Shown: one piece after another, positions 1 through 24,146 of the stretch
Layout of the letters: each line of letters opens with the position of its first letter
How positions within the stretch are numbered: the first letter of the stretch is position 1
From: Balneolaceae bacterium
GTDB lineage: Bacteria; Bacteroidota; Rhodothermia; Balneolales; Balneolaceae
Assembly: GCA_017795005.1 (NCBI GenBank)
Contig: CP051242.1
Span: 1 to 64,000, forward strand
Reading direction: 5' to 3'
DNA length: 64,000 nt
The notes under the pieces: model-generated
The model's database searches: none
Told to the model about the DNA's origin: nothing
Seen by the model: the letters and a program-made list of their open reading frames with translations, nothing else
Program-made: the position numbers and the translations under genes

Positions 1-983
1 TCTTCCAGTAAAGCTCCTATATCGAATCTGGACTTTTGAATAAAACTTTCATCGTAATCATATCTTTGAAGAGATTTAATATCCTCAAATAGGCGGACCA
101 CTCGTTCCACCTGTTTCTGAGCGGTAGTCATATACTGTCCCTTTTTTTCATCATCCAGATTAGGGACCTGAATCATTTCCAAAGCTCCTGAAATTGTATG
201 TAATGGATTTCGAACTTCATGAGTAATATCAGCAAAGAACTGATTCTGTTTTTCATTCAGTTTTTTAAGTTGTTCGTTATCCGCCTTAAGAGTACCTGCC
301 ATTTTGTTAAGGGATTCAGCTAGCATTCCAAATTCATCGTTTCTGCTAACATTTAATTCCTTATCCAAATTACCGTCTGCAATTTCCAGAGCTGCTTCGT
401 TCAACTGTTTTATTGGCTTGGCGAGATATCTGGCAAAGAGTAAACTCACAATAAACACCACCATTATTGAGCCAATCATAGCTCCATAGATTAAATGTCG
501 AATGCTGGCTTCTGCAGCATATAAATCGTCTTTAAATTGACTTATTCTCAAATATTGAGCATCAGATCCATTAGTACCAATTCGTCTGAAGGAAATAAGT
601 TTATCAAGATTTTCTTCATTGATAATTACCTGTGCTTCACTGCCATCCAATTGTTGTTGTAACTCTGCATTTAGAAATTCTCTGGAATCAGACATTTCAG
701 AATTCGTTATAGGGGCGGTTACCAATAAATCCCCTGCTGAATCAAAAAGAGCAACATTATAACCTGTTAGCTCGGCTACAAAAGATGCATTTTCTAGGAG
801 TTCTTCGTTAGTGGTACTCTCCTCAAAAGATTGAGCAAAAGTGCGGGCATCGTTTTCAAATTTTTGGATTGCCTCTTCAAGCAGAAAACCGCGAATACTC
901 AATATTGCGTATGAGCTAATAACCACTACCCCAATTGAAAGTAGTGTTATATAAACAGCTGCAAGTTTAGCCTGAATATTCAT
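1..983 (-). CDS. Sensor histidine kinase, C-terminal end outside window
   Basis: Membrane sensor kinase that would phosphorylate the response regulator encoded just upstream. About 327 residues are visible from the ATG at 983. A first membrane segment (about residues 7-28) is followed by an extracytoplasmic sensor region to about 160. A second membrane segment (about 165-185) leads into a HAMP-like linker and a HisKA domain with the H-box THEVRNP, whose phosphoacceptor is H255. The ATPase domain lies beyond the window edge. The start codon overlaps the regulator's TGA stop by 4 bases (ATGA), so the two genes are translationally coupled. The stimulus cannot be inferred. Confidence 0.93.
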   Translation of the reverse strand, partial: MNIQAKLAAVYITLLSIGVVVISSYAILSIRGFLLEEAIQKFENDARTFAQSFEESTTNEELLENASFVAELTGYNVALFDSAGDLLVTAPITNSEMSDSREFLNAELQQQLDGSEAQVIINEENLDKLISFRRIGTNGSDAQYLRISQFKDDLYAAEASIRHLIYGAMIGSIMVVFIVSLLFARYLAKPIKQLNEAALEIADGNLDKELNVSRNDEFGMLAESLNKMAGTLKADNEQLKKLNEKQNQFFADITHEVRNPLHTISGALEMIQVPNLDDEKKGQYMTTAQKQVERVVRLFEDIKSLQRYDYDESFIQKSRFDIGALLE

Positions 984-1681
984 TTATGCAGGTATTCGCG
1001 ATTAAATCCGTAGCCAACTCCTCTGTAAGTTTTAATAAGCTTTCCTTCGTCTTTCATTTTAATCCGAAGGTTTTTGATATGGACATCCACGGTTCGGTCA
1101 AAAATATATTTCTCTTCATCAGAAATATGTTCCAGAATTTCATGCCTGCTATATACCAGTTTTGGATGCTGAAAAAACAACTCTGCAATGATGTATTCTG
1201 TGTGCGTTAAATCCACCTTTTCTTCATGGATGTACATTTCTTTTGCATCAGTATCCAGATACACATGATCGTACTGGAGCCAGTTACTTTTTTCGGGGTT
1301 TTGCCTTCTAAGCTGACTTTCAACATGTGCCTTAATAAGATTTAAACTTGCAGGTTTTTTGATATAATCATCTCCCCCAAGTTCTAAGCCTTCAATTTCG
1401 TCTTGTTCCTCATCTCTTGCAGTAAGAAATAACACGGGTATTTCATTAACTACAGGATGGTTTCTGATGTGAGTACAAATTTCTTTTCCATCATGATAAG
1501 GAACCATGATATCCAGAATCGCAAGCTCTAACTCATTTGCGTGATCATCAATAAACTTGTATGCCTCTTTCCCATCTTTAGCCCAATATACTTTGTATTC
1601 ATTCAGCTCGAGAAAATTTGCCAGCATTTCGCCAGATTCGATCTCATCTTCCACTAATAAAAGAGTATGTTTGTAATTCAT
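980..1681 (-). CDS. OmpR-family response regulator
   Basis: DNA-binding response regulator of 233 residues and partner of the adjacent kinase. The receiver domain (about 1-125) carries the acidic pair E11-D12, phosphoacceptor D57 in LAILDIMVPYHDG, the switch Thr in FLTARD and the conserved Lys in IKKP. The C-terminal half is a winged helix with the family signature DRTVDVHIKNLRIKM followed by YRGVGYGF. The gene is first in a regulator-kinase operon, and its stop overlaps the kinase start. The end repeat of the four-helix-bundle cassette lies within 30 bases upstream of its ATG, so its promoter may be in or beyond that cassette. The target genes are unknown. Confidence 0.95.
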   Translation of the reverse strand: MNYKHTLLLVEDEIESGEMLANFLELNEYKVYWAKDGKEAYKFIDDHANELELAILDIMVPYHDGKEICTHIRNHPVVNEIPVLFLTARDEEQDEIEGLELGGDDYIKKPASLNLIKAHVESQLRRQNPEKSNWLQYDHVYLDTDAKEMYIHEEKVDLTHTEYIIAELFFQHPKLVYSRHEILEHISDEEKYIFDRTVDVHIKNLRIKMKDEGKLIKTYRGVGYGFNREYLHK

Positions 1682-1708: not shown

Positions 1709-2143
1709 GCAGTAGCCAGTTTGATGGAATTATTTAAACTTTGACGGATTTTTCATCATAAAACCAAGTAGATTTCCAACTTCGGCATATTTTCCTGAAA
1801 GGTTGACTTTAGTTTCTTCGCTAATGTACCCGCAATTATAAGAAAAATCTATCCAAACAAGTGTTTCGCTACACTCGGCGTCACAATCCGAAAGTTTACT
1901 TATGAAATGTTTTGGATAGATTCTTTTTCTATACCCTTCAGCAAAATTAGCACACACCGATCTGGATGATCTGCGTATTTGGTCGGTCAAGGAATACTGT
2001 TCGTCTTTTGGAAAGTTTTTTGTTAAATGAAAAATCTCCATTGCTAGCTCATATGCTAGTTGGTAAGCTTTCAAATCTTTAAATCCCTGACTCATCTCCA
2101 CCTCATTTTCTAAAATAATTAAATACTGCAAACTGGCTACTGC
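1709..2143. repeat. Single-gene cassette bracketed by a 15-nt perfect inverted repeat
   Basis: The left arm GCAGTAGCCAGTTTG (1709-1723) is the exact reverse complement of the right arm CAAACTGGCTACTGC (2129-2143). Between them lies one small gene (four-helix-bundle protein) and almost nothing else: the left arm begins 6 bases after the gene's stop codon and the right arm lies 33 bases before its start. The arms contain drifting copies of one short word (CAGTA, GCAGTA, GCCAGT). No target-site duplication is obvious. Mobility is inferred, not shown. Confidence 0.7.
1730..2095 (-). CDS. Four-helix-bundle protein (S23 / 23S rRNA IVS-type family)
   Basis: Small helical protein of 121 residues in the family of proteins encoded in intervening sequences of bacterial 23S rRNA genes, which also includes Avd of diversity-generating retroelements. 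Family hallmarks are the start GFKDLKAYQLAYELAMEI, then LTDQIRRSSRSVCANFAEGY and a Glu-rich third helix. I chose the ATG at 2095 over the upstream ATG at 2131 because a strong Shine-Dalgarno (GAGGTGG) precedes it and homologues start there. It is not inside an rRNA gene here, and no reverse transcriptase is nearby. The molecular role of solitary members is unknown. It is bracketed by inverted repeats. Confidence 0.88.
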   Translation of the reverse strand: MSQGFKDLKAYQLAYELAMEIFHLTKNFPKDEQYSLTDQIRRSSRSVCANFAEGYRKRIYPKHFISKLSDCDAECSETLVWIDFSYNCGYISEETKVNLSGKYAEVGNLLGFMMKNPSKFK

Positions 2144-2200: not shown

Positions 2201-2998
2201 ATGACATATAATAATAAGGTTGTCTGGATAACTGGTGCTTCTTCAGGAATTGGTGAGGCTTTTGCAAAAGCTTTTTTTAATGAAGGAGCCAAACTTATTC
2301 TTTCATCACGAAGAGAAGAAGAATTACATCGCGTTATGACTAATCTTAGTGCTACTTCAGATAACTGCTATATACTCCCGTTGGATTTATCAAAACCTGA
2401 ATCACTCAAGAAAAAGTCGGAAGAAGCTCTATCGGCTTTTGGAAGAATAGATGTATTGGTAAATAATGGAGGAATTAGTCAGCGTTCGCTTTTCGCAGAA
2501 ACAGATATGGAAACCATTCGCCGACTGATGGAAGTTAATTTCTTTGGCTCTGCAGAATTAACAAGGGAAGTATTGCCTTCCATGATGGAACAAAAAAGTG
2601 GTCATATCATCGTTACAAGTAGTGTGGCAGGAAAATTCGGGACTAAATTTCGTTCGGGATATGCTGCGAGTAAACACGCTTTACAAGGACTTTTTGATTG
2701 TATCCGTCAAGAGATGTATGAGTATAATATTGGAGTTACTATAGTTTGTCCCGGCCCAATCAAAACGAATATTACTCAAAACTCCTTAACCGCAGATGGA
2801 AGTAACTTTGGGAAAATGGGAGATCTTCATAAATCTGCAATGGATGCAGATGAAATGGTTGCTCGAATCTGGAAAGATTTAAAAAAACAAAAAGAAGAGA
2901 TTTATATTTCGAGTCCAAAAGAAAGGCTGGCTCTATTAGTGAAGCGTATATCACCCAAATTACTGAATATTATTTTGAAAAACAGTAAAGTGACTTAA
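2201..2998 (+). CDS. SDR-family NAD(P)-dependent oxidoreductase
   Basis: Classical short-chain dehydrogenase of 265 residues, cytoplasmic. The Rossmann motif GASSGIGEAFA is near the N-terminus, followed by the NNGG motif of the cofactor fold, a catalytic Ser in VTSSVAG and the YAASK catalytic Tyr-Lys pair. The basic SSRREEE after the second strand suggests NADP(H) preference (inference). The substrate is unknown; the overall look resembles DHRS7-type members. It converges on the DUF58 gene and the two stops overlap by 4 bases. Confidence 0.93.
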   Translation: MTYNNKVVWITGASSGIGEAFAKAFFNEGAKLILSSRREEELHRVMTNLSATSDNCYILPLDLSKPESLKKKSEEALSAFGRIDVLVNNGGISQRSLFAETDMETIRRLMEVNFFGSAELTREVLPSMMEQKSGHIIVTSSVAGKFGTKFRSGYAASKHALQGLFDCIRQEMYEYNIGVTIVCPGPIKTNITQNSLTADGSNFGKMGDLHKSAMDADEMVARIWKDLKKQKEEIYISSPKERLALLVKRISPKLLNIILKNSKVT

Positions 2999-13285: not shown

Positions 13286-15457
13286 TTACTTCTTACTCGC
13301 CAGATAAAATAACTGCATAATGCGTAGCTCATCGTAACCGATTTGTTTGTTCAGCAAATCGTAGACCGGACGGAGCATTAGCGGACTTTTCTCATCCATC
13401 GCCTTCATCACCTGATCGCGTTGTCGATCTGAAAGAGAGGATGCCTGCAACAACCCATCCAATCGAAGATCATTGCCCTCATCCAGATATTTCTTTAAAT
13501 GAGTAAGTATGGTGACTTCTTTCACACCGTGTTCTTCTGCAAGTAATTTAATGGATTCCCCTTCATTGAAGGCTTCCGCAACAATCTGGTGTTTTTCGGT
13601 TGCAGTCGTTTTTTTGATTTTCTTTTGAAGCGATTTCTGCCTCTCCATGATATCATGTTCGGCAGTAAAAGTTTTAATAATTCCTATAAAAGAATCTCCA
13701 AATTTCTCCTTTTTTACTTTTCCAACTCCATATAAAGCCTCAAGCGCATCTTTATTCTGAGGAAAGTAATAAGCCATTTCTATGAGCGTAGTATCTGGAA
13801 AAATTGCATAAGGAGGCACATCATCAGCATCAGCAAGTTCTTTTCTCTTCACACGAAGTAATTCGAAAAGTTCTTCATTGTAGTTGTTCTCTACATCACT
13901 CGAAGTCCGGACAATAGTTTCTCCATCTATAGCTACATCGGTTCGATCCATAGTACCAAACACATTTTCATTTCCTTTCAATACCTGATGTCCCCGATCT
14001 TCCATCACCAGTACTCCGTATTCTCCTTTGCTGATATAATTCTGACGGAGTAATAATCTGGATAATTGAGTCCACTGATCCTTCGACCATTCCATTCCAA
14101 TTCCATAAGTCGAAATCTGATCATGCTCGTGTTCCAAAACCTTCTGATTTTTCGAGCCGCGGAGAATATCAATTACATGTCCGGCACCAAATGACTCTTC
14201 ACTCTTGATCATACAGCTCATAAACTTTTGAGCCTGAATGGTCATGTCTTCTACATCATCATCAACCGACAAGCAGTTGTCGCACATTCCGCATTCATCA
14301 TTAGGATAGGTCTCTCCAAAATAATCGAGCAATGGTTTACGACGGCAATCTAACGATTCAAGATATTTTACCAATTCCTTTAAGTGATTTTCAGCAACCT
14401 CTTTCTCATTACCGCTTTTCTGATTAATGAAATACTTAATCTTTTGAGTATCAGAATAACCAAAAAGAAGTATGCAATCAGATCGAAGACCATCACGGCC
14501 TGCACGACCTATTTGCTGGTAATAGGACTCAATATTTTGAGGCATATCGAAATGAACCACAAAACGAACATTCGGCTTGTTAATCCCCATCCCAAAAGCA
14601 ATCGTTGCTACGATAATCCGAACGTCGTCTCTGATAAACTCTCTTTGATTGATAGACCGCTCTCTGGAATTCAATCCGGCGTGATAAGGCTTCACAGAAT
14701 AGCCTTCCTGATCCAGTAAATACGCAAGTTCATCTACTTGTCTACGGGAAAAACAATAAATAATACCAGACTGGTTTTTTCGTGTATATAGAAAATCCAA
14801 CAACTGATTTTCCGGGTCTTTTTTATCTGCGATTTTCAGAAAAAGATTACTACGATCAAAGCTTGAGATAAAGGCTTCCGAATCTGTTAGATTCAAACTT
14901 TGTTTGATGTCTTCCTGAACTCTTGGTGTAGCTGTAGCGGTAAGTGCTATACAAACTGCTTCAGGGAAATCCTTTCGAAATTCAGTCATTTGTCGGTATT
15001 CCGGGCGGAAATCGTGTCCCCATTCCGAAATACAGTGCGCCTCATCAATGGTAAAGCAATCGATTTGGAGCTGTTTCAACATCTCCCTTGTACGGTCCAT
15101 CATTAGAGTTTCCGGGGCTAAATACAGTAACTTGATATCGCCACGCATCACACGTTTAACATTATAATCATATTCTTCAGGACGAAGCGAGCTATTCAGA
15201 TAAACAGCCGGTATATCGTATTCCCTGAGCTGTTCAACCTGATCTTTCATAAGTGAAATAAGGGGAGAAACAACAATCGTCATCCCTTCAAAAATCATGG
15301 CGGGAATTTGGTAGCAAAGCGATTTACCACCACCGGTTGGCATAATCACCAAGGCATCTTTCTTATCTAGTACCTGTGTAATTGCCGCTTCCTGCTGAAG
15401 TCGGAAGCTATCGTAGCCAAACGTCTCTTTTAAAATACTCTGCGCTCTATTTATCAC
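13286..15457 (-). CDS. recQ: ATP-dependent DNA helicase RecQ
   Basis: 3'-5' superfamily 2 helicase for recombination and fork repair, 723 residues. Walker A MPTGGGKS (about 39-46), DEAH box in TIDEAHCISEWGHDFRP, motif VI QQIGRAGRDG, and a zinc site with Cys in DCRRK and ECGMCDNC. After the winged helix come an HRDC domain (about 530-600) and a C-terminal HTH-type segment (about 625-665). The start is GTG at 15457, because no ATG occurs before the first conserved region. That GTG overlaps the stop of the GxxExxY gene and lies inside its end repeat. Confidence 0.97.
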   Translation of the reverse strand: MINRAQSILKETFGYDSFRLQQEAAITQVLDKKDALVIMPTGGGKSLCYQIPAMIFEGMTIVVSPLISLMKDQVEQLREYDIPAVYLNSSLRPEEYDYNVKRVMRGDIKLLYLAPETLMMDRTREMLKQLQIDCFTIDEAHCISEWGHDFRPEYRQMTEFRKDFPEAVCIALTATATPRVQEDIKQSLNLTDSEAFISSFDRSNLFLKIADKKDPENQLLDFLYTRKNQSGIIYCFSRRQVDELAYLLDQEGYSVKPYHAGLNSRERSINQREFIRDDVRIIVATIAFGMGINKPNVRFVVHFDMPQNIESYYQQIGRAGRDGLRSDCILLFGYSDTQKIKYFINQKSGNEKEVAENHLKELVKYLESLDCRRKPLLDYFGETYPNDECGMCDNCLSVDDDVEDMTIQAQKFMSCMIKSEESFGAGHVIDILRGSKNQKVLEHEHDQISTYGIGMEWSKDQWTQLSRLLLRQNYISKGEYGVLVMEDRGHQVLKGNENVFGTMDRTDVAIDGETIVRTSSDVENNYNEELFELLRVKRKELADADDVPPYAIFPDTTLIEMAYYFPQNKDALEALYGVGKVKKEKFGDSFIGIIKTFTAEHDIMERQKSLQKKIKKTTATEKHQIVAEAFNEGESIKLLAEEHGVKEVTILTHLKKYLDEGNDLRLDGLLQASSLSDRQRDQVMKAMDEKSPLMLRPVYDLLNKQIGYDELRIMQLFYLASKK

Positions 15458-15983
15458 TGATTTCTCTGATTGATAAGATTTTGATTTCCAGACTTTGAGT
15501 TAATAAATCGTTTTGGTCGCAAGCTTTCTTCTCCAAAATTGATTAATAATCCAACTTCCAAATTATAAGCCTTCAAATAGTTAAGAACCTGATTAGCGTG
15601 TCTGCTATTTATCTCGGAAACAGCTTTTAGCTCAAGTACGACTTGCTCATTGATGATAAAATCCGCTCTTCTAGTCCCAATTTGTATTCCATCATAATAT
15701 ACAGGCATTTCAACTTCTCTTGAAAAAGTAATTCCTGTCTTATTCATTTCATGAGCTAGACCTCTTTGATAAATAATTTCCGGATATCCATTTCCGAGGT
15801 AGGCGTGTAACCTCATAGCACATCCAATAATATCTCCAGTAAGCCTGCTAAATTTATATTCTTTATTGACGATTGATCTCATAGCTCTTTAATTAGGATT
15901 AACCTTTTCAAATAATGAGATCAATTAAACCATCAGTCCTTACAATTTGTATTATAATCAGGTCAATCAGAGAAATCTGTGAT
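15453..15983. repeat. Single-gene cassette bracketed by a 21-nt inverted repeat
   Basis: The left arm at 15453-15473 (ATCACTGATTTCTCTGATTG...) and the right arm at 15963-15983 are reverse complements at 20 of 21 positions. Between them is only the GxxExxY gene and an 80-base leader. The left arm contains that gene's stop codon and the recQ GTG start. The arms contain drifting copies of a short word (CTGATTT, CTGATTG). Mobility is inferred. Confidence 0.72.
15454..15882 (-). CDS. GxxExxY protein, PD-(D/E)XK nuclease-like
   Basis: Small protein of 142 residues named for the motif G32-YP-E35-II-Y38. It also has a recognisable PD-(D/E)XK core: D74 in RADFII and E84-L-K86 in VVLELKAV (PF13366 type). 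Nuclease activity is inferred from the fold; the biological role of the family is not established. A Shine-Dalgarno-like AAAGAG precedes the ATG. The stop overlaps the recQ start by 4 bases. The gene is bracketed by an inverted repeat that runs into its own 3' end. Confidence 0.9.
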   Translation of the reverse strand: MRSIVNKEYKFSRLTGDIIGCAMRLHAYLGNGYPEIIYQRGLAHEMNKTGITFSREVEMPVYYDGIQIGTRRADFIINEQVVLELKAVSEINSRHANQVLNYLKAYNLEVGLLINFGEESLRPKRFINSKSGNQNLINQRNQ

Positions 15984-16000
15984 CAAAAAGAGATAAAACG

Positions 16001-19963: not shown

Positions 19964-20350
19964 GGTTAACTCTGTTTTCGGTTTTGTGAGTGTGTGCTGT
20001 ATTGACCCACCCCTTTATCCCTTCCGATGGAGGGGAGACTCGTTGTTCTGTCAAGGAAATAAATCAACGTGTTTTCCTCTCCTTGGAGAGGAAACGAAGG
20101 TGAGGGTAATACATCAAAAAAAATCCGACTACGATACTCGCGTCGGATTTTTTGAAAATATGTTGAACTAAAAAAATGCATCAACTTTGCGATTGGTTTT
20201 TGGTTCGCTTGGTTGATATCTCAAAGCTATGGGTTGCTAACAATAAAATTGGTGTAAAAAGCTTTGTTGAAGTTTCATTAAGATAAGGAGTGAATAGATT
20301 CGATTCAATGTGAAACTAACTTACTTTTCCACAATTAATGCACATTATCT
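19964..20350. other. Gene-free stretch: car leader region
   Basis: 387 bases between carA and a small membrane-protein gene. It holds GA-rich repeat-like text (around 20010-20105, similar in style to the composite repeats at 26.5 and 29.4 kb) and the hairpin at 20118-20153. The rest (20160-20350) is AT-rich. The open frames inside (for example 72 codons on the minus strand) have repeat-derived sequence and look spurious. Confidence 0.6.
20118..20153 (-). terminator. Bidirectional-type terminator or attenuator in the car leader
   Basis: Perfect 12-bp stem AAAAAATCCGAC / GTCGGATTTTTT with a 12-base loop. On the minus strand the second arm ends in eight T. It can end the transcript of the upstream membrane-protein gene or act as an attenuator about 155 bases before carA. 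Confidence 0.75.
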
Positions 20351-20692: not shown

Positions 20693-20710
20693 TTCTAAAT
20701 TATGAATGTT

Positions 20711-20756
20711 AAATGCTCAATGTTAAATAAGGCGTACTATTTAACATTGAGCATTT
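20711..20756. repeat. Word-type palindrome 3' of the acylase gene
   Basis: Perfect 19-bp inverted repeat AAATGCTCAATGTTAAATA (20711-20729) and its complement (20738-20756) around an 8-base loop, 4 bases after the acylase stop codon. The arms reiterate TGTTAAAT. No T-run follows. Confidence 0.75.
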
Positions 20757-20760
20757 AGAA

Positions 20761-23178
20761 TTAATCATTGGTATTAAATTTTAAACTGTACTTATAATCC
20801 ATTGGTGGTTCTTTATAAAAATTCAATTCATAAAGCTCTCCTGTTCGCCAGTTTTCTAACATAGAATCGTAATTCGGTGAACCCGGATTTCCGGAAGCTC
20901 CTCCGGGATAAACTCCCCATCCTTTTACCTCAGGTCCTAGCTCTACCACCATTCTCCAGGAAGGCCCCCAGGTTCCTCTTGTTGCATTAATGGATTCTGA
21001 GTTGCCACTTGAAAACAAGTTCTGAGCTCCAAAGCCTGGGATAAAGGCTATATGATCGACATCGTTGTTAATCACAACTCCCCAATTCCAGTTTTCTCCA
21101 AAATCTCCATAAGCGTTTGTTAGTTCTTCTACGGTCTCTTTGAATGCATCAGTTACTACTCTTTCTCTGGTTTCTATTTCTTCTGTTTCGATGTTATCAA
21201 AGAACTCTAAGTCTTCTTCTGCTTGTATTACTTCAACGAGCCGGTCGCGGGAAGGCCAGCGAAGAGAAGCATCTGTAGAATTGTACTCGTCACTCAAAAT
21301 GGCATAATAGAAATTACTCCACCACCATCGGAAAATTCCCGGAGCTTTAAGATCAGAATTGTTGAAGAAATCCCATTTTTCAACTTCAGCAAGAATTTCC
21401 AGTTCAGCATCTGATAATCTTTCCCTGTTAATCCAGTCAACCATTTCCGGGAGTATCGTGGCCGCATGGTAGCTATAGTTATCCATTTGCATTTTCCGGA
21501 TATCATCAGCTGTAATATCCTCCATTTCTTCTAACAACTCGTTAATTCTTCTTCCCCTCTCAAATGGTGCAGAATCATCGTCCAGATAATAAGGATAATC
21601 TTCCGCAGCGGACTCCTGATTAGCTGAACTAACAAACCCTCTCTCTGGATTCTTAATATGAGGATTTTGTTCAAAAGGAATCCAACCCTGCCAGTCATAA
21701 AGCGGATCAGATCCATCACTTACCGTTCTTCCCTGATACTTCCACTTATTAGGTAGTTTTCCAGTTATCCAAATCCCTATATCTCCTTCAGAGTTAGCAA
21801 AAATAAAGTTTTGTGTAGGAGCAACATAATGAGAACCGGCTTCCCTGAAGTCTTCAAAAGTCTCCATTGTATTGAAACCGAAGAATGTTTTCAGATCATT
21901 GGATGGTTCATGTGCAATCCATCTCAATGCGTAGTACGAAGGGTTCCCTTCTTCATTAATTTCCGACTTGAACTCCGATACTGGTCCGTGATGAGTATAA
22001 AATACGGTATCTAACACCGTCTCTTCGCCTCTCACTATAATCTCCTCAATTCGCATGCTCGTAGGTTTCCATTCTCCATCATGCCAATATTCTTGTTTTG
22101 AAGCATCTTTGAATCTGATTTCATACCAATCCATTACGTCTGTTCCGGAATTAGTTGTTCCCCACGCTGCTTTTTCATTATACCCGACGATAACACCAGG
22201 ACTACCTTGCAGTGAAACTCCATAGGTGTTGATACCCGGAGCATTTAGTTGTACTTCGTACCAAATAGATGGAAGAGTTAATCCGAGGTGCGGATCATTA
22301 GCAAGAATCGGATATCCGGATGCCGTCTTGCTTCCATCAACTGCCCAGTTATTGCTACCAACTCCTTCCGGGCGTTCAAACTCTTCTAACTCAAGAGCAA
22401 GCGCAGGTTCGAATATAGAATCCGGGGCCTGAACTGGAAGAGGTTCAAAATCCCATACTCTGGATGGAGGAATGATTGGATCGTTTAATTCCGGTTTAAT
22501 GGTGAAAAATTTTTCGATAAAATCGTCTCCAAAGAACATTGCGGTATTGCTTGTTCTCGCATCACTGTTCCCTCCGGCAAGAGTACGGGTCATATTTTTA
22601 AGTAGATGTGCCGTTTTAATGAGTTCCCATTCTTCAGGTTCAAAATCTAAAATCTTGTATTCTAAGGGATAATCTTTTGGAGAAAGGGATGAGATATATG
22701 CATTAACCCCATCTGAATACGCATTTAATGCCGACCAAATTTCCTGATCCTGCTTTATAAACTCGATTGCTTTCTCAGCTCCGTAAGGCATTCCTAATCT
22801 ACGTGTACTTAAATCTCTGCTTAGAGTTCTTGATCCAAGTCTCTCAGAAAGTCGACCAGCTGCATCATAGGTTTGCATTTCCATTTGAAACAATCGGTCG
22901 CGGGCTGTTATGTAGCCTTGAACGAAATAGAGGTCATTTTTAGATTCTGCAAAAATGTGAGGCACTCTTCGCTCATCAAAATAAACTGACACCTCACCCT
23001 TTACTCCATCCAATAAAAACTCCGCAGATTGAGGCTCAGATAGTTCTGCATTAGCCCAGAAACCGGCATCCGGATCAAAAAACTTTCCCAATGGGGGAAT
23101 TGAACCAAATTTGGTATTGAGTGAGATCGTAAGAACGATCAGTATTATCAGAGAAGTAACAGGCTTTAAAAAGCGCAT
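20761..23178 (-). CDS. Penicillin acylase family protein (Ntn hydrolase)
   Basis: N-terminal-nucleophile amidohydrolase of 805 residues with an N-terminal hydrophobic segment (about 7-22) for export. The sequence VPHIFAESKNDLYFVQGY followed by ARDRLFQMEMQTYDAAGRLSE matches the alpha-chain start of the family. Autocatalytic cleavage is expected before S275 in EGVGSNNWAV, making Ser the N-terminal nucleophile of the beta chain. Natural substrates may be acylated amines such as N-acyl homoserine lactones or other amides (inference). Hairpins flank the gene at both ends. Confidence 0.93.
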   Translation of the reverse strand: MRFLKPVTSLIILIVLTISLNTKFGSIPPLGKFFDPDAGFWANAELSEPQSAEFLLDGVKGEVSVYFDERRVPHIFAESKNDLYFVQGYITARDRLFQMEMQTYDAAGRLSERLGSRTLSRDLSTRRLGMPYGAEKAIEFIKQDQEIWSALNAYSDGVNAYISSLSPKDYPLEYKILDFEPEEWELIKTAHLLKNMTRTLAGGNSDARTSNTAMFFGDDFIEKFFTIKPELNDPIIPPSRVWDFEPLPVQAPDSIFEPALALELEEFERPEGVGSNNWAVDGSKTASGYPILANDPHLGLTLPSIWYEVQLNAPGINTYGVSLQGSPGVIVGYNEKAAWGTTNSGTDVMDWYEIRFKDASKQEYWHDGEWKPTSMRIEEIIVRGEETVLDTVFYTHHGPVSEFKSEINEEGNPSYYALRWIAHEPSNDLKTFFGFNTMETFEDFREAGSHYVAPTQNFIFANSEGDIGIWITGKLPNKWKYQGRTVSDGSDPLYDWQGWIPFEQNPHIKNPERGFVSSANQESAAEDYPYYLDDDSAPFERGRRINELLEEMEDITADDIRKMQMDNYSYHAATILPEMVDWINRERLSDAELEILAEVEKWDFFNNSDLKAPGIFRWWWSNFYYAILSDEYNSTDASLRWPSRDRLVEVIQAEEDLEFFDNIETEEIETRERVVTDAFKETVEELTNAYGDFGENWNWGVVINNDVDHIAFIPGFGAQNLFSSGNSESINATRGTWGPSWRMVVELGPEVKGWGVYPGGASGNPGSPNYDSMLENWRTGELYELNFYKEPPMDYKYSLKFNTND

Positions 23179-23196
23179 TCTTAATTTTAAATTATG

Positions 23197-23237
23197 AATT
23201 TTGAATTATGTTGATTTAACATTCATAATTCAAAATT
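23197..23237. repeat. Word-type palindrome 5' of the acylase gene
   Basis: Perfect 14-bp inverted repeat AATTTTGAATTATG (23197-23210) and CATAATTCAAAATT (23224-23237), placed just after the stop of the amidinohydrolase gene. The sequence around it repeats GAATT/AATTATG words. It is very AT-rich, so chance palindromy contributes. Confidence 0.6.
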
Positions 23238-23249
23238 CAAAATTAATCA

Positions 23250-24146
23250 TTACCAAAGAAGCATTTTCATACAGAATACACTTCCACCACTTTTCAGGTA
23301 TTCTTCGGTACTGAATTCATGGACAATAAATCCCGCCTTTTCCATTGCTTTGTTTGCCTCAACACAACCTTCCTGAATAAATACATTTTTTCCATCCGGA
23401 CAAGTTGCATTACAAGCGAACAGTTCTGCTGCTTCGTGGTCGTTGGTATCAATCACGTTTGGAAATATTGCTCCAATCAATTTCAATCCCTCTTCAGTGA
23501 ACGCTTTTGAATAAATCATAACCGTCTCTTCATTCAGAACACAAAAACAGGTATCCAAATGATAAAACCGGTCATCAATAAGTTCCAAGGCTATAACAGG
23601 GGTATCAAAGGTTTCTGAGATATATTTATAAACATCCAAAGATGACCGGTACCCATATCCACCCCATATCAATCTTTTTTTGTGATGCCAGATTGCATCA
23701 CCCATTCCTTCAAAATCGGTGAATTTACTTTCATCCAGATGTACAATTTCATAACTGCTCTCTTCATACGCTTTCTGAATATGAGGCACTTCCCCTTTTC
23801 TTTGAGGAGCATGCATCACACTCATCACTACCTGTTTGGTTCCATCGGAAGTAATATTAGGAAGACTTTGATTTGCACAGAATACCATATCGGGATAACC
23901 TTCAGCTCCTTCAATCTCATGAACATACATTCCAAGGTCTTCATAGCCATTCTTTAACGCCTTCCACTCTTTTAGCGCTACTTCTTTATCAATATCCCCA
24001 ATATGACCTTTCATATGTGGGTTTATCACATACTTCACATCAAACTGAGATGGATTAACTACCAATACTTTTTCTGGTACTGGCATTGATTCCAAATCAG
24101 CAAGGTTAAAATCCAGCTGATCCAATTTAGTGACTACCTTTTTCAT
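23250..24146 (-). CDS. Amidinohydrolase (DDAH / arginine-deiminase superfamily)
   Basis: Guanidine-modifying hydrolase of 298 residues, cytoplasmic. The catalytic set can be read: D86 in YPDMVFCAN, E146 in FEGMGD, H196 in YHLDTCF and nucleophile C292 near the C-terminus in GGSVFCMKM. The order and spacing fit dimethylargininase-like members better than the longer bacterial arginine deiminases. The substrate (arginine, dimethylarginine or another guanidino compound) is not settled. It is transcribed toward the acylase gene. Confidence 0.88.
   Translation of the reverse strand: MKKVVTKLDQLDFNLADLESMPVPEKVLVVNPSQFDVKYVINPHMKGHIGDIDKEVALKEWKALKNGYEDLGMYVHEIEGAEGYPDMVFCANQSLPNITSDGTKQVVMSVMHAPQRKGEVPHIQKAYEESSYEIVHLDESKFTDFEGMGDAIWHHKKRLIWGGYGYRSSLDVYKYISETFDTPVIALELIDDRFYHLDTCFCVLNEETVMIYSKAFTEEGLKLIGAIFPNVIDTNDHEAAELFACNATCPDGKNVFIQEGCVEANKAMEKAGFIVHEFSTEEYLKSGGSVFCMKMLLW

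Follow-up and report, generated by a model that had tools for sequence, protein, structure and literature searches.

An IVP gene cassette outside rRNA, enclosed by inverted arrays of seven-nucleotide repeats in a Balneolaceae genome

Genes of the IVP/S23 family are commonly annotated as 'four helix bundle protein', without a function, and the spread of the rRNA intervening sequences (IVSs) is a long-standing question. The IVS in helix 45 of the Coxiella burnetii 23S rRNA comprises ~440 nt with an S23 ORF and a 28-bp terminal stem, and is subject to RNase III cutting (PMC4990558). Dispersed heptamers have been described as GGGAATC in Xanthomonas, with 70-75 inverted pairs, and GGGGATT in Nostoc (PMC4692102), as TAACTGA in Beggiatoaceae (PMC4679880) and as GGGACCG in Geobacter (PMC2700814), and heptamers are the commonest class of simple sequence repeat (SSR) in many bacteria (PMC4679880). 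The dispersed heptamers of these several phyla are without an agreed origin, and the open-access literature that we searched contains no link between IVP genes and heptad arms or dispersed heptamers.

A minus-strand gene at 1730-2095 of the window (the whole 64-kb stretch of DNA analysed here) encodes a protein of 121 aa, with its stop at 1730, an ATG at 2095 and a TTG at 2131 as an alternative upstream start. The original prediction, made from the sequence, had placed it in the 23S-IVS/Avd family, and profile searches agree: the gene matches PF05635 (23S_rRNA_IVP) with E 1.9e-31 and 108.8 bits against a cut-off of 33.8, and TIGR02436 with E 6.7e-29. Its AlphaFold model is a four-helix bundle (pLDDT 94.7), which Foldseek matches to 2gsc, 2rld and 4dwl. 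The solved IVP relatives 2gsc and 2rld (the latter BT_0352 of the commensal B. thetaiotaomicron) have five chains per deposited structure. Xcc0516 is a solved IVP from Xanthomonas campestris, of the genus with the GGGAATC repeats, and consists of five four-helix bundles according to a title cited in PMC10053308. Downstream of the gene lies an OmpR-type response regulator (RR; 980-1681, minus strand; Response_reg and Trans_reg_C by domain matches) and on the other side a short-chain dehydrogenase (SDR; 2201-2998, plus strand), a divergent RR-SDR pair that is kept in ~28 relatives. The regulator, which starts at 1681 on the strand of the IVP gene, is the close, co-oriented neighbour that had been predicted; the locus has no Rfam rRNA match and, as proposed, lies outside rRNA genes.

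The gene is enclosed by a perfect 15-nt inverted repeat at 1709-1723 and 2129-2143, as had been noted at the outset. Perfect inverted 13-mers spanning 300-700 bp occur as two pairs in the 64 kb; the 15-nt pair is one, and the other likewise flanks a small gene, of the GxxExxY family. The 15-nt repeat is nested in a 33-nt pair (1704-1736 and 2116-2148, 79% complementary) and forms the perfect core of a longer structure, two tandem arrays of a 7-nt unit in inverted orientation. In the sense of the gene, the 5' arm (the right one, 2119-2150) reads AGTTTGC, AGTAGCC, AGTTTGC and AGTATTT, and the 3' arm (the left one, 1702-1725) is the complement of AGTAAGC, AGTAGCC and AGTTTGA; autocorrelation has its maximum at lag 7 in both (0.56 left, 0.52 right). 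These heptad-array arms were overlooked in the original prediction and are the decisive feature, since it is their period, not their sequence, that the family shares across phyla. The exact 15-mer has no second real copy in the genome, and the cassette DNA occurs once. A match at C1:3724393 was ruled out as a second insertion: window positions 1 to ~24387 equal C1:3722685-3747071, so that the contig begins and ends with one ~24.4-kb stretch. The contig had not been circularised, and copies in this terminal redundancy are not real duplicates.

At this locus the cassette is an insertion. The RR-SDR intergenic region measures 519 bp here, and in the five closest relatives, where a search for the empty site had been proposed, it is empty at 39-50 bp (49, 39, 50, 39 and 39 bp in L023-L027). 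The inserted DNA extends approximately from 1700 to 2185 (~470 bp; about 450-470, the ends being blurred by divergence), with ATTCAGTAAG on the left and ATTCACTAAG on the right as a candidate target duplication; none is clear at the other empty sites, and at those compared none is convincing. Empty sites were identified for four further IVP cassettes of the same genome. Compared with G001, G002 and G014, the other cassette sites measure ~430-500 bp filled and 11-35 bp empty: the interval between umuD and umuC is 501 bp with the IVP gene and 35 bp without it, and a site in an acyl-CoA operon is 446 bp filled and 12 bp empty. On a Nostoc edaphicum plasmid, an IVP insertion between nrdB and nrdA is bounded exactly by TAGGGAG arrays when set against an empty Calothrix site. 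Filled and empty versions of one site with precise ends, the mark of a mobile cassette, are at hand, and no long DNA arrived with the cassette, because the flanks outside it match those of the relatives. No recent transposition pair, in the sense of a near-identical cassette at two sites, was found. On plasmids 1 and 2 of Calothrix brevissima (L308 and L309), an IVP gene with AGGGTGT arrays stands beside a phage-integrase-family gene; this was rejected as a transposition pair because the neighbouring genes are also common to both plasmids of the one strain, which makes it a shared segment.

The genome, which is 99.5% complete, contains 14 distinct PF05635 genes. Most have inverted arms whose left side matches the right, which differ in sequence at each locus and which are mostly 7-nt periodic. 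Arms missing near other family members had been named as what would speak against the original prediction; the same 15-mer is indeed missing there, and the arm architecture is common to the family. For a wider survey, the genomes of 84,980 species were scanned and the best 80 matches taken, which come from many phyla and gave 77 usable loci. Arms, defined by a left-right arm score of at least 14, were found at 52 of the 77 loci and in none of 385 length-matched segments of the same loci, about one third of the loci falling under the threshold. Two of 150 control ORFs reached it, one of them an unlisted IVP gene. In an independent set of viral contigs, 18 of 23 IVP loci have arms, with lag 7 dominant in most; one query of phage records returned no IVP match. 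Flank autocorrelation across the survey is strongest at lag 7 (z=14.1), followed by lag 14 (z=11.8) and lag 8 (z=8.0), and the dominant lag is 7 at 53 and 8 at 21 of the 77 loci. In the 5' arm, read in the sense of the gene, AG recurs roughly once every 7 nt (0.97), and CT is scarce (0.20). Arms range from ~14 to >80 nt with a median of 35 nt, equal to five units; the agreement of 5 x 7 = 35 nt with a five-subunit ring may be a coincidence. No rRNA match was obtained among the 14 own-genome and 80 survey IVP loci.

Comparison of orthologous sites (recN, radC, dinB, comM, recA and others) shows that the arms vary between species and that a left arm agrees more closely with the right arm of its own species than with that of another (paired Wilcoxon p=7e-4, an approximate value as the rows are related). 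The two arms evolve in concert, and they travel with the gene: at radC, the genome of the window (G000) has a comM-type cassette, arms included, that shares AACAAGGAATTTT in the arm, and three relatives have a different IVP subfamily at this site. Slippage, which would alter the repeat units, and hairpin-templated repair, which would keep the arms alike, would together be an adequate explanation for arms that stay matched yet shift. At recN, dinB and recA, some diverged IVPs have one position common to several species, a pattern that resembles long residence and counts against the mobile reading. In L074 and L085, a stop breaks the IVP frame after 90 and 33 codons, respectively, and the cassettes are still recognisable; this suggests decay after insertion.

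Hairpins of this design also occur without a gene. Short-looped solo hairpins whose arms have a 7- or 8-nt period were counted in sampled sequence of two groups of relatives. Four relatives with IVP genes yielded 11 in 864 kb, all from three of the four, and five relatives without IVP genes yielded none in 1.17 Mb, one of the five being hairpin-rich and equipped with GxxExxY genes; the binomial p=8e-5 ignores phylogeny and composition. The window contains two, at 20698-20769 and 23182-23252. At the site orthologous to the latter, G026 carries an entire IVP cassette, its arms made of 8-nt units, and G001, G002 and G011 carry solo hairpins with changed repeats; related hairpins are scattered through G001, G002, G014 and G026. 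In the genus g4, a hairpin built of 8-nt repeats, with no gene, occupies the RR-SDR intergenic region itself (GTGTTAAA GTGTTTAT GTGTTACA GTGTTAAG in L032); a G-A/C-T change in it between G005 and G032 is compensated. A distinct, non-heptad dispersed repeat lies at ~20000-20108 of the window and has several matches in G001, G002, G011 and G014.

The GxxExxY gene of the window (TIGR04256, PF13366 PDDEXK_3; 15454-15882, minus strand) is located between recQ-like and carB-like genes and is enclosed by inverted 36-nt arms (81%) at 15450-15986. Among relatives from the same bacterial order, inverted arms reach a score of 14 at 12 of 30 GxxExxY loci and in 1 of 120 controls. Their units are 8-10 nt long, for example CACAGAGTTCACAGAGT; the periods are 10 and 8, and lag 7 gives no signal, compared with z 13 at lag 7 for IVP flanks in the same order. 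The period thus goes with the enclosed protein, and its difference in a second small gene family suggests a rule, by which the enclosed protein sets the period, and not a single oddity.

Like an rRNA IVS, the window cassette is ~430-470 nt long, contains one PF05635 ORF and has terminal complementary arms that close a predicted large RNA stem-loop. Folding of the window transcript, a check suggested at the outset, predicts a structure of -122.6 kcal/mol (z -4.9) that is closed by a stem of the two arms; in the survey, flank-flank pairing of at least 12 bp is obtained at 66 of 77 loci and, with a foreign right flank, at 26 of 77. Unlike an rRNA IVS, the cassette lies between protein genes and belongs to a multi-copy family, and its arms are 7-nt tandem arrays, a period measured at non-rRNA loci alone. 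By protein and anatomy, the cassette resembles an rRNA IVS, and it may work like one, but it is placed outside the rRNA location that defines these elements.

On balance, our data lean towards a compact mobile cassette, IVS-like but located outside rRNA, in which the ring-forming IVP protein reads the repeats and which a host enzyme copies. The IVP ring, with five members in the solved relatives, would read the repeats in single-stranded DNA or RNA, one unit per subunit; the five-chain relatives, the tandem arms and a period that follows the enclosed protein point in this direction. The arms may pair in the host transcript, which would extrude the cassette as a stem-loop closed at its base, in the way of an rRNA IVS, for cutting by RNase III. 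The complex of IVP and repeat could then lead to copying of the cassette, and of gene-less hairpins in trans, to new intergenic sites by the host enzyme.

The arms resemble the dispersed bacterial heptamers, by comparison with published repeat descriptions, in being 7-nt tandem units that are intergenic and often form inverted pairs. This raises the possibility, which we put forward tentatively and with less confidence than the reading of the cassette itself, of a class of mobile cassettes defined by the period of their ends and not by their sequence. Inverted tandem arrays would be read by an oligomeric, cargo-encoded protein (7/8 nt for IVP, 8-10 nt for GxxExxY); the dispersed heptamer repeats and hairpins of many bacteria would derive from such cassettes, and rRNA IVSs would be the rRNA-resident branch of the class. 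There is a real chance that the cassette class itself is new. Seven-nucleotide inverted arrays around a ring-forming protein would tie together IVP genes, the spread of rRNA IVSs and the heptamer repeats, and the heptad-arm architecture makes the IVP question testable with a defined protein and repeat, a measurable period and pairs of empty and full sites.

The strong predicted stem could also belong to a resident module for RNA processing or autoregulation, in which pairing of the arms within the operon mRNA governs IVP translation or divides the transcript, presence and absence reflecting ordinary horizontal gain and loss. An IVP start codon inside an arm (L006) and the several sites kept between species would suit such a module, as would the orientation of the cassettes, which are sense to co-directional neighbours in 60 of 65 cases and antisense in 5. 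We consider it unlikely, in view of the dispersed gene-less copies, the exact ends at intergenic sites with otherwise syntenic flanks, and the cassette replacement at radC. For a mobile IVS-like cassette, the sense bias fits dependence on read-through, although native operon genes share this bias; the antisense cassettes, and that in the Nostoc nrdBA operon, which is also antisense, count against such dependence because read-through would not express the gene.

The cassettes also share with MITEs and REPINs (RAYT) their small size, intergenic position, inverted repeats and dispersed gene-less copies. A MITE-like DNA element would have its terminal inverted repeats recognised in trans by a transposase of the Y1/RAYT type or by a GxxExxY nuclease-fold protein, with IVP as a passenger. 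The cassette indeed contains no transposase, as originally predicted; five Y1 transposase genes are present elsewhere in the genome, none of them at the window cassette, and the PDDEXK_3 gene of the window is packaged in a similar style. The ends of the IVP cassettes nevertheless vary from copy to copy, with a common period and symmetry only, unlike those of MITEs that depend on one transposase, and a MITE with conserved ends was rejected because the arm sequence differs at each locus. The Y1 loci carry hairpins of their own that are not heptad-based, and Y1 is absent from the near-complete IVP-bearing genomes G007, G008, G064 and G035; on these grounds Y1 is not required for the presence of the cassettes and was rejected as a required partner. 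PF13366, for its part, is absent from the IVP-bearing genomes G008, G014 and G034. A passenger role of IVP in such an element therefore appears improbable.

Much less probable still is retro-mobility, in which a reverse transcriptase would copy the folded cassette RNA, in the manner of diversity-generating retroelements (DGRs) or group II introns, and IVP would act like Avd. The four-helix-bundle model of the window IVP does match the Avd structure 4dwl (TM 0.80/0.89 in Foldseek), with a weak NCBIfam Avd score (37 bits, under the cut-off of 80), and the predicted RNA fold and the sense bias would be compatible with this route. The cassette was predicted to be free of a reverse transcriptase, and no RVT_1 domain was found in the whole 99.5% complete genome despite its 14 IVP copies; no DGR partner was seen, and a DGR was rejected on the lack of a reverse transcriptase in the genome. 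Of the non-autonomous mobile or IVS-like element first proposed, the insertion with its empty sites, the multi-copy family and the IVS anatomy stand. No mover was found for it, given the genome without a reverse transcriptase and the near-complete IVP-bearing relatives without Y1.

That there is no element at all, heptad arrays and palindromes arising from slippage and quasipalindrome repair with IVP genes adjacent by chance, would agree with the abundance of heptamer SSRs (PMC4679880) and with arms that diverge fast yet stay matched, and can be dismissed as highly improbable on the excess of arms over the control segments, the confinement of solo hairpins to IVP-bearing genomes among those sampled and the dependence of the period on the enclosed gene family.

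Eight of the 14 own-genome IVP genes adjoin repair or chromosome genes, namely umuD/umuC, scpB, smc, recN, dinB, comM/priA, recA and radC (L005, L008, L013, L014, L016, L017, L018 and L019). A role in DNA repair was rejected as a general rule, because ScpB is the one such neighbour among the 80 survey loci. Between smc and ispH, an IVP cassette is found in G000 and G001, and G002 instead holds another small ORF (MALIKDYKISVIEKDG...) preceded by the heptads AATTAAGAATTTTTCAATTAAGAATTAGGA (L162, near 1159-1493). At L098, two IVP genes (440-793 and 2139-2486) with different heptad arms lie on one 3.4-kb contig.
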